Source: Gemmatimonadaceae bacterium (GTDB lineage: Bacteria; Gemmatimonadota; Gemmatimonadetes; Gemmatimonadales; Gemmatimonadaceae). From it: a stretch of DNA of 42,641 bases. The stretch's first letter is position 1. Every line of letters begins with the position of its first letter. Positions 18,427 through 23,117 of the stretch are shown here, in pieces. The position numbers and the translations under genes were made by a program. Under the pieces are notes generated by a model. That model saw only the letters and a list, made by a program, of their open reading frames with translations, did not search any database and was not told the DNA's origin. Where the stretch lies: positions 1-42,641 of the forward strand of contig JALHNZ010000030.1 of the NCBI GenBank assembly GCA_022843265.1, written 5' to 3'.

Positions 18427-18451
18427 TCGGTGAATCTAGCGAGATTTGCGG

Positions 18452-19408
18452 ATGCCCACGATTCCAATCACGCCGGTCCGAGCGGCCGTTGTGCAATGCG
18501 CGCCGGTGAGCTTTGACCGCGACGCAACCATCGCCCGCGTGCGCGAACACACGGCCGCCACCGCGGCCGGAGGTGCGACACTCGTGCTTTTTCCTGAAGC
18601 CTTTGTCAGCGCGTACCCACGCGGCCTCACATTCGGCACCGTCATCGGCAGCCGCTCCGCCGAGGGTCGCGAATGGTATCGCCGATACTGGGAATCCAGC
18701 GTTGATGTTCCGGGTCCGCACACGGCACAGCTCGGCGAGATCGCACGCGAACACCGTGTGCATCTGGTGATTGGTGTGATCGAACGCGACGGTGGCACCC
18801 TCTACTGCTCGGTTTTGTTTTTTGCGCCAGACGGCGAATTGCTCGGCAAGCATCGCAAACTGATGCCCACTGCAGCGGAACGACTGGTGTGGGGGCAAGG
18901 CGACGGCAGCACCATGCAGGTGCACCACACTGCCGCCGGCATACTCGGCGCCGCGATTTGCTGGGAGAGTTACATGCCTATGTATCGCATGTCACTCTAC
19001 GGACAGGGCGTACAAATCTATCTCGCGCCGACCGCAGACAGCCGTGAGTCGTGGATCGCAACCGTGCGACACGTCGCCATGGAAGGACGGTGTTTTGTGC
19101 TTTCAGCGAATCAGTTCGCCCGACGCACCGATTATCCGCCTGACTATCCACTGGATGCGAAGATTGCACTTGGGCTCGCGCACGACGCCATTCTGACAGC
19201 CGGTGGAAGTTGTATCATCAATCCGCTTGGCGACGTGCTCGCCGGTCCTGTGTATAACGAAGAAGCTGTATTGTTTGCCGACCTCGACCTTGGCGACACC
19301 GTTCGCGGCAAGTTCGATTTTGATGTCAGCGGACATTACGCACGCCCTGATGTCTTTGAGCTCCGCGTAAACACCGCGAGCACAAAGGCAGTTGAGCACT
19401 ACCCCTGA
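18452..19408 (+). CDS. Nitrilase (carbon-nitrogen hydrolase)
   Basis: 318 residues from the ATG at 18452 (a TTG two codons earlier is possible). The catalytic triad is visible: Glu49 in LVLFPEAF, Lys136 in GKHRKLMPT and Cys170 in GAAICWESYMP. The segments GREWYRRYW, HRVHLVIGVIERDGGTLYCS and GGSCIINPLGDVLAGP match true nitrilases, which turn nitriles into acids and ammonia, more than amidases. The natural substrate is unknown; similar enzymes act on aryl- or alkyl-nitriles and cyanide-derived compounds. It begins a close run with the exporter gene 12 bases downstream, so substrate or product export is plausible. Confidence 0.9.
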   Translation: MPTIPITPVRAAVVQCAPVSFDRDATIARVREHTAATAAGGATLVLFPEAFVSAYPRGLTFGTVIGSRSAEGREWYRRYWESSVDVPGPHTAQLGEIAREHRVHLVIGVIERDGGTLYCSVLFFAPDGELLGKHRKLMPTAAERLVWGQGDGSTMQVHHTAAGILGAAICWESYMPMYRMSLYGQGVQIYLAPTADSRESWIATVRHVAMEGRCFVLSANQFARRTDYPPDYPLDAKIALGLAHDAILTAGGSCIINPLGDVLAGPVYNEEAVLFADLDLGDTVRGKFDFDVSGHYARPDVFELRVNTASTKAVEHYP

Positions 19409-19420
19409 CTGGAGAAACGT

Positions 19421-19741
19421 ATGGCGTGGTTCGTGCTCGTATTGGCCGGACTCTTTGAAATCGGCTGGGCCGTTGGCCTCAAGTACACGGAAGGCTTTAC
19501 GCGACTCTGGCCGAGTGTGCTGACGGCGATCGCCCTGGTGACCAGCATGGGACTGCTCGGGATTTCCCTGCGCACGCTACCGCTGGGCACCGCCTACGCC
19601 GTGTGGACGGGAATCGGCACGCTTGGCACGGGCATTCTCGGCATCGTACTGTTCAAGGAACCCGCCACGGCCGCGCGATTGGTGTGTATGTCACTAATCA
19701 TCGCGGGTATTGTCGGACTCAAGGTGGTAACTCCAAAGTAG
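19421..19741 (+). CDS. gdx: Small multidrug resistance exporter, guanidinium type
   Basis: A 106-residue SMR protein with four transmembrane helices and the essential Glu13 ([18 protein letters not shown]). The sequence [14 protein letters not shown] and [25 protein letters not shown] are close to E. coli SugE, so it belongs to the Gdx subgroup that exports guanidinium in exchange for protons, rather than the EmrE-like multidrug subgroup. It works as an antiparallel dimer in the inner membrane. The leader region has no space for a guanidine riboswitch upstream of the nitrilase gene, so it is probably expressed from the nitrilase promoter. The assignment rests on sequence marks. Confidence 0.92.
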
Positions 19742-19761: not shown

Positions 19762-20601
19762 ATGAACGATACGAACGTCTTCGCGCGCTATAATGTGCGC
19801 TCGCAGGGTGCGGGCCCCGTCACGCTGCTGTTTGTCCATGGTTTTGGCTGCGATCAGGCCATGTGGCGCTTTGTTGCACCAGAATTTGCGGCGCAGCAGC
19901 GCGTCGTCACGTTTGATCTTGTGGGGCACGGCGGCACCGGTATCGCGCATTATGACGAAACGCGTCATGGGTCGCTTCACGGCTACGCAGATGATCTGCT
20001 CGAGGTAGTACACGCGCTGGACGCTGAACGTTTGATTGTGGTCGCACATTCGGTGAGCGCTACGATTGCGCTGTTGGCGTCGGCGCGTGAACCCGAGCGT
20101 TTTGAGCGATTGGTACTGGTGGGCCCTTCGCCCTGTTACGTGAACCATCCGCCAGACTACATCGGGGGATTCGAACGCGAGGACCTTGAAGACATGCTCG
20201 AGACAATGGCAAAAAACTACACGGCGTGGGCGGGTGCACTCGCTCCCGTCATCGTGGGCAACGCCGATCGACCGGAATACGCACAAGAGCTCGAAACAAG
20301 CTTCTGCGCCATTGATCCCGACGTCGCGCACCAGTTTGCAACGGTCACTTTCCTGTCTGATCATCGTGATGACCTACGCGCCGTTCGCACGCCGTCATTG
20401 ATTTTGCAGTGCCAGGATGACGTGATCGCGCCAGACACCGTTGGCACGTTTCTGTCTGAACAGCTTCCTCACGCAACGTTATATCGAATGGCAGCCACCG
20501 GACACTGTCCTCACCTCACGCATCCAACGGAGACGGTCAGCGCGATCCGCACATATCTTGCGTCCGCTCCCGGCGTACCCCTGCCGCTTGGTGGTCGGTA
20601 G
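19762..20601 (+). CDS. rsbQ: RsbQ-like alpha/beta hydrolase
   Basis: 279 residues from the ATG at 19762. The match to RsbQ of Bacillus is strong along the chain: FVHGFGCDQAMW, GYADDLLEVVHALD, VVAHSVSATIALLAS, LVLVGPSPCYVNHPPDYIGGFE, FCAIDPDVAHQFA, FLSDHRDDL, SLILQCQDDVIAPDTVG and GHCPHLTHP. The triad is Ser97, Asp220, His248, one position after the Bacillus residues. RsbQ is needed for the PAS phosphatase RsbP to sense energy stress, apparently by acting on an unknown small molecule. Here the partner gene starts at the base after the stop, and it is a PAS histidine kinase in place of an RsbP phosphatase. The D14/KAI2 hormone receptors of plants share this fold. Confidence 0.92.
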   Translation: MNDTNVFARYNVRSQGAGPVTLLFVHGFGCDQAMWRFVAPEFAAQQRVVTFDLVGHGGTGIAHYDETRHGSLHGYADDLLEVVHALDAERLIVVAHSVSATIALLASAREPERFERLVLVGPSPCYVNHPPDYIGGFEREDLEDMLETMAKNYTAWAGALAPVIVGNADRPEYAQELETSFCAIDPDVAHQFATVTFLSDHRDDLRAVRTPSLILQCQDDVIAPDTVGTFLSEQLPHATLYRMAATGHCPHLTHPTETVSAIRTYLASAPGVPLPLGGR

Positions 20602-22140
20602 ATGATCGCCGCCCAACGTCGTTCAGAGTCATCTTTTGATTCGGCCGCCTGCGGCCTGGCTGTATGCGCCAGCGACGGTTCGTTGATGCACGTGAACAAA
20701 ACGCTTGCCATGTGGTTGGGTGGAGATCCCTGCGCCACTTCGCAGACCACGTTTGTTCGACTGCTCACCCCGGCCAGCGCGCTGCTGTACGAAATGCACC
20801 TCAAGCCGAGACTGGCGCTCGGCCAGCGTATCGACGGCGCCTTTGTCACGCTAAAGAGCAGGCATGAACGCACCATCCCCGTCGTACTCAACGCGGTGCA
20901 GGACGCCGATGGGCGCGTCGACATTGCCGTGGTCAACGTGCGCGAACGTGAGGAGTACGAGGAGTCCATTCGCCGCGCGCACGCGGAGACCGAGTCCGCA
21001 CGAGCGCAGTTGGCGGATACCTTGCGTGCACTGCGAAGCAGCGAAGCGCTGGTGCGCGCCCAGTTTGATGCCTCACCCATGCCAACCTTCGTGTGGCAGC
21101 GGCTGGCCGATGGCCGGTTCGTGCTCAGCAATCATAACGAATCGGCGCTGCATCTCGCGAGCGATGCGCGGAAGCTTGCCTCGATCACGGTAGCGGGTGC
21201 GTTTGCGGAGCACCCCGAAGTCGCCGACGCCATGCAGGGCGCACTCGACGATCTCGCGGTGACGGAACTTGAGTTGCCACCAAACGCACGAGTACTCGGA
21301 GCAGGACGCACCTTGTTGATGACGGTTGGACCACTGCCGTCCGATCGTGTGATCATGCACGTCCGTGATGTGACCCAGGAACGATTGGCGCAGCAACAGC
21401 AGCTACATGGCCACAAGATGCTCGCGCTGGGACAGCTCGTCGCGGGCGTGGCGCATGAGTTCAACAACGTGCTGGCCGTGATTCAGGGGAACCTTGAGCT
21501 GGTGCGTGAGGATGTGGCACACGTCCTTCCCGAATCCCCTGCGCTGCAGCAGGATCTGGAGATCGTTCAGGACGCGACGCGACGCGCCGTGTCGCTCGTT
21601 CGCCAGCTACTCAGCTTTGGTGGGCGGCATGAACCTCGTGATACCATCGTCGAGTTGAACAGTGTGGTGCGTGCTACCGAGCGATTGTTACGTCCGATTC
21701 TCACCACGTCGATCGAGCTGCACGTTGAGCTCTCCGAGTCGGCACAGGATGTGTACGCCGACGCGGACACGCTGTCGCAGGTGGTCACAAACCTCGTGAT
21801 CAATGCCCGTGACGCCGTCGTAGAACGCGGACCAACGGCGCGCATCGGTATCCACACCTCGCAGGTGCTGCTCGACACGCCGCAGCACGGATTGGAGCCT
21901 GGGTGTTATGCGTGCGTGGCCGTGAAAGACAACGGATGTGGCATGTCGCCCGAAGTACAGGAGCGCGCGTTTGAACCGTTCTTTACCACCAAGCGTGTTG
22001 GAAGCGGCACCGGGCTTGGGCTCTCCATGATTTATGGTGTCGCTCGCGACCACGGTGGGGCCGTCACTATTGAGAGCGATCCGGGACACGGTACCTGTGT
22101 GTCGGTGCTGTTACCACGAGTCGTACCACACGGCACATAG
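20602..22140 (+). CDS. PAS-domain sensor histidine kinase coupled to RsbQ
   Basis: A 512-residue protein with no transmembrane helix. Residues about 11-118 form a PAS domain with a Y-E-M-H segment (LLTPASALLYEMHLKPRLA) and IPVVLNAVQDADGR, as in PAS domains linked to RsbQ-type hydrolases. A coiled coil follows (about 118-150), then a second PAS-like region to about 258. The kinase core has phospho-acceptor His285 (VAGVAHEFNNVLAVIQGN), the N-box (VVTNLVINARDAV), DNGCGM (443-448), FEPFFTTK and GSGTGLGLS (468-476). No receiver domain or response regulator is near. It starts directly after rsbQ with no gap, so the two should be made together. It is likely a soluble kinase that senses the RsbQ product. 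Confidence 0.93.
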   Translation: MIAAQRRSESSFDSAACGLAVCASDGSLMHVNKTLAMWLGGDPCATSQTTFVRLLTPASALLYEMHLKPRLALGQRIDGAFVTLKSRHERTIPVVLNAVQDADGRVDIAVVNVREREEYEESIRRAHAETESARAQLADTLRALRSSEALVRAQFDASPMPTFVWQRLADGRFVLSNHNESALHLASDARKLASITVAGAFAEHPEVADAMQGALDDLAVTELELPPNARVLGAGRTLLMTVGPLPSDRVIMHVRDVTQERLAQQQQLHGHKMLALGQLVAGVAHEFNNVLAVIQGNLELVREDVAHVLPESPALQQDLEIVQDATRRAVSLVRQLLSFGGRHEPRDTIVELNSVVRATERLLRPILTTSIELHVELSESAQDVYADADTLSQVVTNLVINARDAVVERGPTARIGIHTSQVLLDTPQHGLEPGCYACVAVKDNGCGMSPEVQERAFEPFFTTKRVGSGTGLGLSMIYGVARDHGGAVTIESDPGHGTCVSVLLPRVVPHGT

Positions 22141-22151
22141 CGGACTGGCGC

Positions 22152-23117
22152 GTGTCCCATTCGCATGCACGCGAGCGCCTGCTCGCGTTTCGTCGCACGC
22201 TCCCGCCTGCACCGTCGCTCGCGCGTCGTGATGTGTCGGCGCGCGGGCTTTCGTTCGCAACGTGGAGCACGCCACCCGTAGCCAACGCCACACCACTGGT
22301 GTGTGTGAACGGTGGGTTGATCTACGATCATTCGCTGCTCTGGCCGGCGCTCGCTCCGCTCGCGCAGCATCGACAGCTGATTTTGTACGACCAACGTGGT
22401 CGCGGCGCATCCCAAGTCCCGCCCGGTATGGCCGCATCGCGCATTGATTTCGACGCGGGCGATCTGGTCGCGTTGCGCCAGGCAATGGGCATCGCGCAGT
22501 GGCACATGCTGGGACATTCTTGGGGTGGCGGCATCGCCATGCAAGCGGCCGCACTCGACGCAGAAGCCGTGCACGCGCTCGTGCTGGTGAACGCCGTGGG
22601 GGTCAACGGTTCGTGGTTACCGCCGTTGCACGCCGCCGGTGTGGCCCGGCTTGAGCAAACGGGTCAGCACGAGGCCGCAGAACGCTTGCGCGCACTGGAA
22701 ACGGCGGCGCTTCGCGAAGCTGACATCGACGTACACGCCAGTTACACACAGGCGTTTTTCCCAGCCTGGTTTGCGGACCCCGAGTTCGCACGGCGCGCCG
22801 TTCCGCCACGAGGCCAAAGTGTTACAGGAGCGCACGTCGTAGCGCGCTTGCGCCGCGAGGGATACGACTGGAGCGCGCGCCTCAGTGCCCTTCGCGCCTC
22901 CACGCTCGTCCTTCATGGCACGGCTGATGTGCTTCCGCTGAGTGTCGCCGAGCAGACCACGCAGTTGTTCAAATCCTTTGGCGTGTCGGTGCAGTTGCAG
23001 GCACTGGACAACGCCGGGCATAACCCGTTCTGGGAAGCACCGGCCGAGTTCTTCTCGGCAATCACGGCGTTTCTTGCGAGCGTGGATTCACCAACACGCG
23101 CGCCACCAGACCCCTGA
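22152..23117 (+). CDS. Alpha/beta hydrolase (proline-iminopeptidase-like)
   Basis: 321 residues from a GTG at 22152, 11 bases after the kinase stop. It has VCVNGGLIYDHSLLWPALAPLA (oxyanion region), LILYDQRGRGAS, the nucleophile Ser123 in LGHSWGGGIAM, an acid in VLHGTADVLP and the catalytic His in DNAGHNPFWE. The QRGRGAS and HSWGG motifs match the group containing proline iminopeptidases and related esterases. The substrate is unknown. It is the fifth gene of a tight run and may belong functionally with the RsbQ/kinase pair, but there is no direct evidence. No signal peptide is seen. Confidence 0.88.
   Translation: MSHSHARERLLAFRRTLPPAPSLARRDVSARGLSFATWSTPPVANATPLVCVNGGLIYDHSLLWPALAPLAQHRQLILYDQRGRGASQVPPGMAASRIDFDAGDLVALRQAMGIAQWHMLGHSWGGGIAMQAAALDAEAVHALVLVNAVGVNGSWLPPLHAAGVARLEQTGQHEAAERLRALETAALREADIDVHASYTQAFFPAWFADPEFARRAVPPRGQSVTGAHVVARLRREGYDWSARLSALRASTLVLHGTADVLPLSVAEQTTQLFKSFGVSVQLQALDNAGHNPFWEAPAEFFSAITAFLASVDSPTRAPPDP

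Follow-up and report, generated by a model that had tools for sequence, protein, structure and literature searches.

The window analysed here is the whole 42.6 kb contig C30 (42,641 nucleotides) of a Gemmatimonadaceae genome, and it carries a gene for an RsbQ-type alpha/beta hydrolase followed at once by a gene for a sensor histidine kinase (Table 1). The two reading frames abut with a gap of 0 bp, the TAG of the hydrolase gene ending at 20601 and the kinase starting with the ATG at 20602, exactly as a preliminary description of this DNA had stated; its assignment of the two products also agrees with Pfam, which finds an Abhydrolase domain in the hydrolase and, in the kinase, two stretches of PAS_4 together with HisKA and HATPase_c. 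A nitrilase-type hydrolase, SugE, RsbQ, the kinase and a second alpha/beta hydrolase are separated, in that order, by gaps of 12, 20, 0 and 11 bp, spacing which suggests that the five genes form one operon, the second hydrolase probably included. The nitrilase-type protein scores 207 bits against its nearest model, TIGR04048 of the Nit6803 family, below the cut-off of 502.6.

Table 1. Features of the RsbQ-kinase locus, in coordinates of the window.
Feature	Position	Strand	Basis
Nitrilase-type carbon-nitrogen hydrolase; first gene of the apparent operon	18446..19408	+	Pfam CN_hydrolase, 4e-55
SugE-type small multidrug resistance transporter; second gene	19421..19741	+	NCBIfam SugE equivalog, score above cut-off
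RsbQ alpha/beta hydrolase, 279 aa; ATG to TAG	19762..20601	+	phmmer against PDB, 1wom, 7e-92
Sensor histidine kinase, PAS-helix-PAS-DHp-CA, 512 aa, predicted soluble; ATG to stop	20602..22140	+	Pfam; AlphaFold2 domain layout
PAS1, RsbP-type, putative RsbQ docking domain	20626..20979	+	82.7 bits, RsbP-PAS profile minus own clade
PAS1-PAS2 linker, continuous helix (residues 116-157), putative signalling helix	20947..21072	+	Model secondary structure, pLDDT about 67-81
PAS2, residues about 162-257	21085..21372	+	Second PAS_4 stretch; PAS-like strands, pLDDT 80s-90s
DHp-CA kinase core	21373..22119	+	HisKA, HATPase_c, CckA 5idj
Second alpha/beta hydrolase, unrelated, non-RsbQ	22152..23117	+	Abhydrolase_1; 11 bp 3' of kinase

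The closest solved relative of the hydrolase is B. subtilis RsbQ itself, followed in the same phmmer search by the bacterial protein 3qvm (5e-71) and by the plant D14/KAI2 group at about 1e-52, after which other esterases fall sharply to 1e-13. The preliminary description had likened the fold to that of these plant receptors. S97, D220 and H248 do not vary across 11 aligned relatives (A1), nor does a GFGCDQ motif, and Ser97 sits in the nucleophile motif A-H-S97-V; we read Ser97-Asp220-His248 as the putative catalytic triad, the same Ser-Asp-His triad as in the homologous D14/KAI2 hydrolases. The partners of the plant receptors are F-box and SMXL proteins and not PAS kinases.

In the kinase, the AlphaFold2 model gives the order PAS1, helix 116-157, PAS2, DHp and CA, with domains that are mostly confident; their relative arrangement is not reliable because the overall pTM is 0.39. 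A transmembrane segment was not evident by eye. The H, N, G1, F and G2 boxes are intact, and the predicted phospho-acceptor His285 (codon 21454-21456) lies in A-H-E-F-N-N and is invariant in alignment A3. By sequence the nearest solved structure to the kinase core is CckA (PDB 5idj), which is also among its best structural matches, and the DHp-CA core with its H-E-F-N-N H-box is that of CckA and the NtrB-type soluble kinases. Compared with these, the window kinase is predicted soluble, has no receiver domain of its own and would take its input from RsbQ and PAS. PAS2 ends in a DIT-like D-V-T motif and is not RsbP-like (the RsbP-PAS profile gives E = 30 there); it is found in the genus of the window (L049, L050) and is missing from L051-L054.

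PAS1, by comparison with other PAS domains, is clearly of the RsbP type. Against a profile built without the window's own branch it scores 80.2 bits, whereas the best PAS that does not adjoin an RsbQ scores 21 bits (two displaced true partners excepted), and in a whole-genome search with the RsbP-PAS profile minus its own clade it reaches the score in Table 1, the next place being at 31.4 bits. The preliminary description had proposed this class and had named in advance a placement outside it as evidence to the contrary; at 80.2 bits, where unrelated PAS domains reach no more than 21, the domain falls well inside. The Y63-E-M-H66 and I92-PVVLNAV segments singled out there both lie within PAS1. 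The domain ends VVNVREREEYE with no DIT motif, and the modelled helix follows. A solved RsbP-PAS structure was sought for comparison and none was found.

Agreement with the residue signature is less complete. Nine residues are characteristic of RsbQ-associated PAS domains, as a 75% consensus and not as an absolute rule; B. subtilis RsbP numbering was carried over via the Sporosarcina homologue L126, with C10, L48, F55, Y59, P62 and P86 aligning without gaps. Five positions are kept (C10 as C17, L48 as L55, C56, of the aromatic class, as Y63, Y59, of the H/Y class, as H66, and P86 as P93), L13 is A20, of the hydrophobic class, and A60, L62 and G79 stand in place of Q53, F55 and E72. Of the four positions at which mutation is null in B. 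subtilis, two differ here: RsbP F55A and E72A both abolish function in that organism, and F55A also breaks RsbQ binding (PMC3183031). Direct RsbQ-PAS contact is consequently less certain here than in Bacillus. Two Sporosarcina loci (L126, L127), with a likely GGDEF output, carry a natural E72A in their RsbP-PAS, the same change that abolishes function when made in the B. subtilis protein.

The combination of RsbQ with an RsbP-type PAS is not new. In 2011 Nadezhdin, Brody and Price described 45 RsbQ-PAS modules, in each of which the RsbQ gene immediately precedes one for a protein that starts with an RsbP-type PAS and has a PPM phosphatase, histidine kinase (in Gram-negative bacteria) or diguanylate cyclase output; their work on B. 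subtilis comprised genetics, two-hybrid and pull-down and showed that RsbQ binds the PAS there (PMC3183031). A predicted 2RsbP/2RsbQ complex has RsbQ touching both the PAS and the linker (PMC12143880). The central idea of the preliminary description, an RsbQ-type sensor rewired to phosphotransfer, is right on the sequence evidence but had already been published, since histidine kinase outputs are among those of 2011; 'rewired', moreover, is loose wording, because kinases are the commonest output among the loci sampled. Like the published modules, the window has RsbQ directly upstream, an RsbP-type PAS without DIT at the extreme N-terminus, a helical linker and a kinase output, and an extra PAS is present in some of them; unlike them, it has E72 and F55 replaced in PAS1, a PAS2 inserted in the genus and a CckA-like core. 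The main text of PMC3183031 names neither kinase subfamilies nor Gemmatimonadota. By gene layout and PAS profile, the window pair is a predicted Gemmatimonas version of the known module whose residue signature agrees in part; what is new relative to prior work is the branch-wide E72G and frequent F55L, common to kinase and GGDEF outputs. The B. subtilis RsbQ-RsbP pair of the sigma-B energy-stress branch likewise joins a hydrolase to an N-terminal PAS with a helix leading to the output domain; there, however, the output is a PPM phosphatase acting on RsbV/RsbW, whereas the window lies outside the sigma-B arrangement and its output is a kinase, so that the downstream chemistry would be phosphotransfer and not RsbV dephosphorylation. 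Two SpoIIE-type domains are encoded elsewhere in the genome.

Conservation of the gene pair is extensive. Among 148 Gemmatimonadaceae genomes, a strong RsbQ, with E of 1.5e-74 or lower, occurs in 29 and an RsbP-type PAS in 29, with both in 28; a single genome (G043) has RsbQ without the PAS, and a single one (G067) has the PAS without RsbQ, at base 190 of a contig, where the upstream gene would be cut off. Two genomes of the same genus that have no RsbQ likewise have no such PAS. Across this and other phyla, an RsbP-like PAS lies directly 3' of the RsbQ homologue in 113 of 117 loci, or 104 of 108 once nine duplicate records are removed; in two of the remainder (L103, L149) the PAS adjoins in another arrangement, one (L113) stops at the contig end and one (L073) has none. 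Near 11 related non-RsbQ hydrolases (24-35% identity) no RsbP-like PAS was found. RsbQ and PAS distances are correlated (r = 0.79 for 102 pairs, while 500 permutations gave no value above 0.13; r = 0.88 inside the phylum set), a value to which shared ancestry contributes. The adjacency of RsbQ and PAS is thus far above chance, and the pair, for which absence from relatives had been named as contrary evidence, is conserved within the family and the phylum and recurs in many further phyla. That the two genes are chance neighbours with no common function is highly improbable, given 28 genomes with both, each gene alone in one genome only, and adjacency that extends across phyla.

Some departures from the usual arrangement were seen. 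At L103:4720-12796, from a Bacillus sp. MAG, RsbQ and the RsbP-type PAS protein are divergent, and CheW, CheA and chemoreceptor-like reading frames, identified by eye, follow RsbQ. In two Paenibacillus species (L117:6824-7315 and L133:6842-7315) the gene after RsbQ codes for an RsbP-type PAS standing alone, about 160 aa long and lacking any output domain; its presence in both species makes a sequencing error unlikely. Natural RsbQ-PAS fusions were also considered, and the long frames at L071, L078 and L155 run upstream of RsbQ and not into the PAS.

The outputs themselves fall into few classes. A search by Pfam for a novel output domain among 95 downstream proteins returned only the classes already published, histidine kinase, SpoIIE phosphatase and GGDEF, one with EAL. 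Outside the Gemmatimonadota set, 68 downstream proteins include 44 with HATPase_c, 11 with SpoIIE and 8 with GGDEF, and within it nearly all are kinases, with two GGDEF. The partner of the window kinase is not encoded next door as in an orthodox two-component layout: a whole-genome Response_reg search found 66 receiver domains, 0 of them on contig C30, in line with the earlier remark that no response regulator is nearby. In six Bacteroidota loci (L097, L111, L114, L120, L130, L144) a stand-alone receiver gene follows the RsbP-PAS kinase by 2-10 bp, and several other RsbP-PAS kinases have a receiver domain of their own, as judged with a receiver profile built from few seeds. These adjoining Bacteroidota receivers are likely the cognate response regulators, and such pairs offer a better place for finding the output.

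Phylogenetic analysis of RsbQ places the window in a supported clade of eight Gemmatimonadaceae (100/93; window, L049-L054 and L082). The PAS position equivalent to E72 is glycine in all eight, whereas among the other 94 compared it is glutamate in 92 and alanine in the two Sporosarcina sequences; at the position of F55, which contacts RsbQ, five of the eight (window, L049, L050, L052, L082) have leucine and every other sequence has an aromatic residue. The output of L082 is GGDEF (a GGDEF-like motif, with two GGDEF matches in its set), and those of the other seven are kinases with the H-E-F-N-N H-box. Since the GGDEF member has both changes, these go with the descent of RsbQ rather than with the type of output; as all lie in one clade, they go back to a single event or a small number of events and do not count as independent replicates. 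The RsbQ proteins of the seven kinase members carry branch-specific residues of their own, including H201 and, in 7/7, A33 and T253; by sequence position alone, A33 and T253 would fall close to the oxyanion loop and to the catalytic histidine. One genome (G036) has two branch RsbQ-PAS pairs, the L051 kinase and, at L082:2226-4663, the GGDEF protein with a receiver gene 3 bp off, an exchange of output within one clade.

Taken together, these findings make it very probable that the pair specifies a bipartite sensing module of the RsbQ-PAS (Q-PAS) kind, the output of which is a histidine kinase. Direct docking, small-molecule sensing and the direction of signalling would follow by analogy with Bacillus RsbQP. 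RsbQ would bind, and probably turn over, a small molecule in its Ser-His-Asp pocket and would dock on PAS1 of the kinase dimer under ligand control; the change would travel along the long linker helix and through PAS2 as far as DHp, altering autophosphorylation of His285 and then phosphotransfer to a response regulator whose gene lies at another place in the genome. Against this count the replacement of F55 and E72, whose change to alanine is null in B. subtilis, by L62 and G79; the partner response regulator, none having been found on contig C30; and the nitrilase, efflux and second hydrolase context, which would also suit a metabolic role for the hydrolase.

That last reading, in which RsbQ is mainly a metabolic hydrolase of a nitrilase-SugE-RsbQ operon and the kinase alone senses the operon's substrate, draws on the neighbourhood. 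All three genomes of the genus that possess the pair also have a nitrilase (65-69% identity) 5' of RsbQ; SugE is kept between nitrilase and RsbQ in L050 (two of the three genus members, the window included) and was not found in the L049 locus; and the second hydrolase stands directly 3' of the kinase in the window and in L049 (67%), the L050 contig stopping inside the kinase. Yet a nitrilase link was sought outside the genus and none was found, so that it is restricted to three Gemmatimonas genomes, whereas the RsbQ-PAS link spans phyla, and the window protein stands much nearer to the signalling members, RsbQ and D14/KAI2, than to hydrolases of catabolism; we regard a mainly metabolic RsbQ as quite improbable. 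Somewhat less improbable, though still unlikely, is that the branch has a decaying or uncoupled module, in which PAS1 has lost RsbQ docking, the kinase answers mainly to PAS2 and RsbQ stays a hydrolase. E72G in 8/8 and F55L in 5/8 members would fit such a loss, as would the gain in the genus of a second PAS whose DIT-like end adjoins the kinase core; but adjacency, an intact triad and co-loss all persist, the substitutions are uniform, unlike scattered decay, and the branch-specific A33, H201 and T253 of RsbQ suggest matched change. Because two Bacillus-relevant residues of PAS1 are changed, the docking surface in the branch is probably modified, and a modified interface is favoured over partial uncoupling.

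It is tempting to speculate further, albeit tentatively, that the branch (window, L049-L054 and L082) possesses a re-formed RsbQ-PAS interface, in which E72G and frequent F55L are matched by RsbQ A33, T101, H201 and T253 near the active-site mouth. Its docking or ligand specificity would then be orthogonal to that of modules of the Bacillus type and would be retained whether the output is a kinase or a cyclase, and in Gemmatimonas the module may report on a nitrile, or something related, on which the adjoining nitrilase acts.

Apart from the branch changes and the nitrilase lead, there is nothing unusual about the pair as an instance of the published module. The conserved operon nitrilase is one concrete chemical lead to the ligand. 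The ligand question for this hydrolase family concerns its plant members too, the compound recognised by KAI2 itself being reported as still unidentified (PMC10504578). With Bacillus-essential residues changed, RsbQ changes to match and two outputs, the Gemmatimonadaceae branch constitutes a natural variant set for mapping the docking surface.
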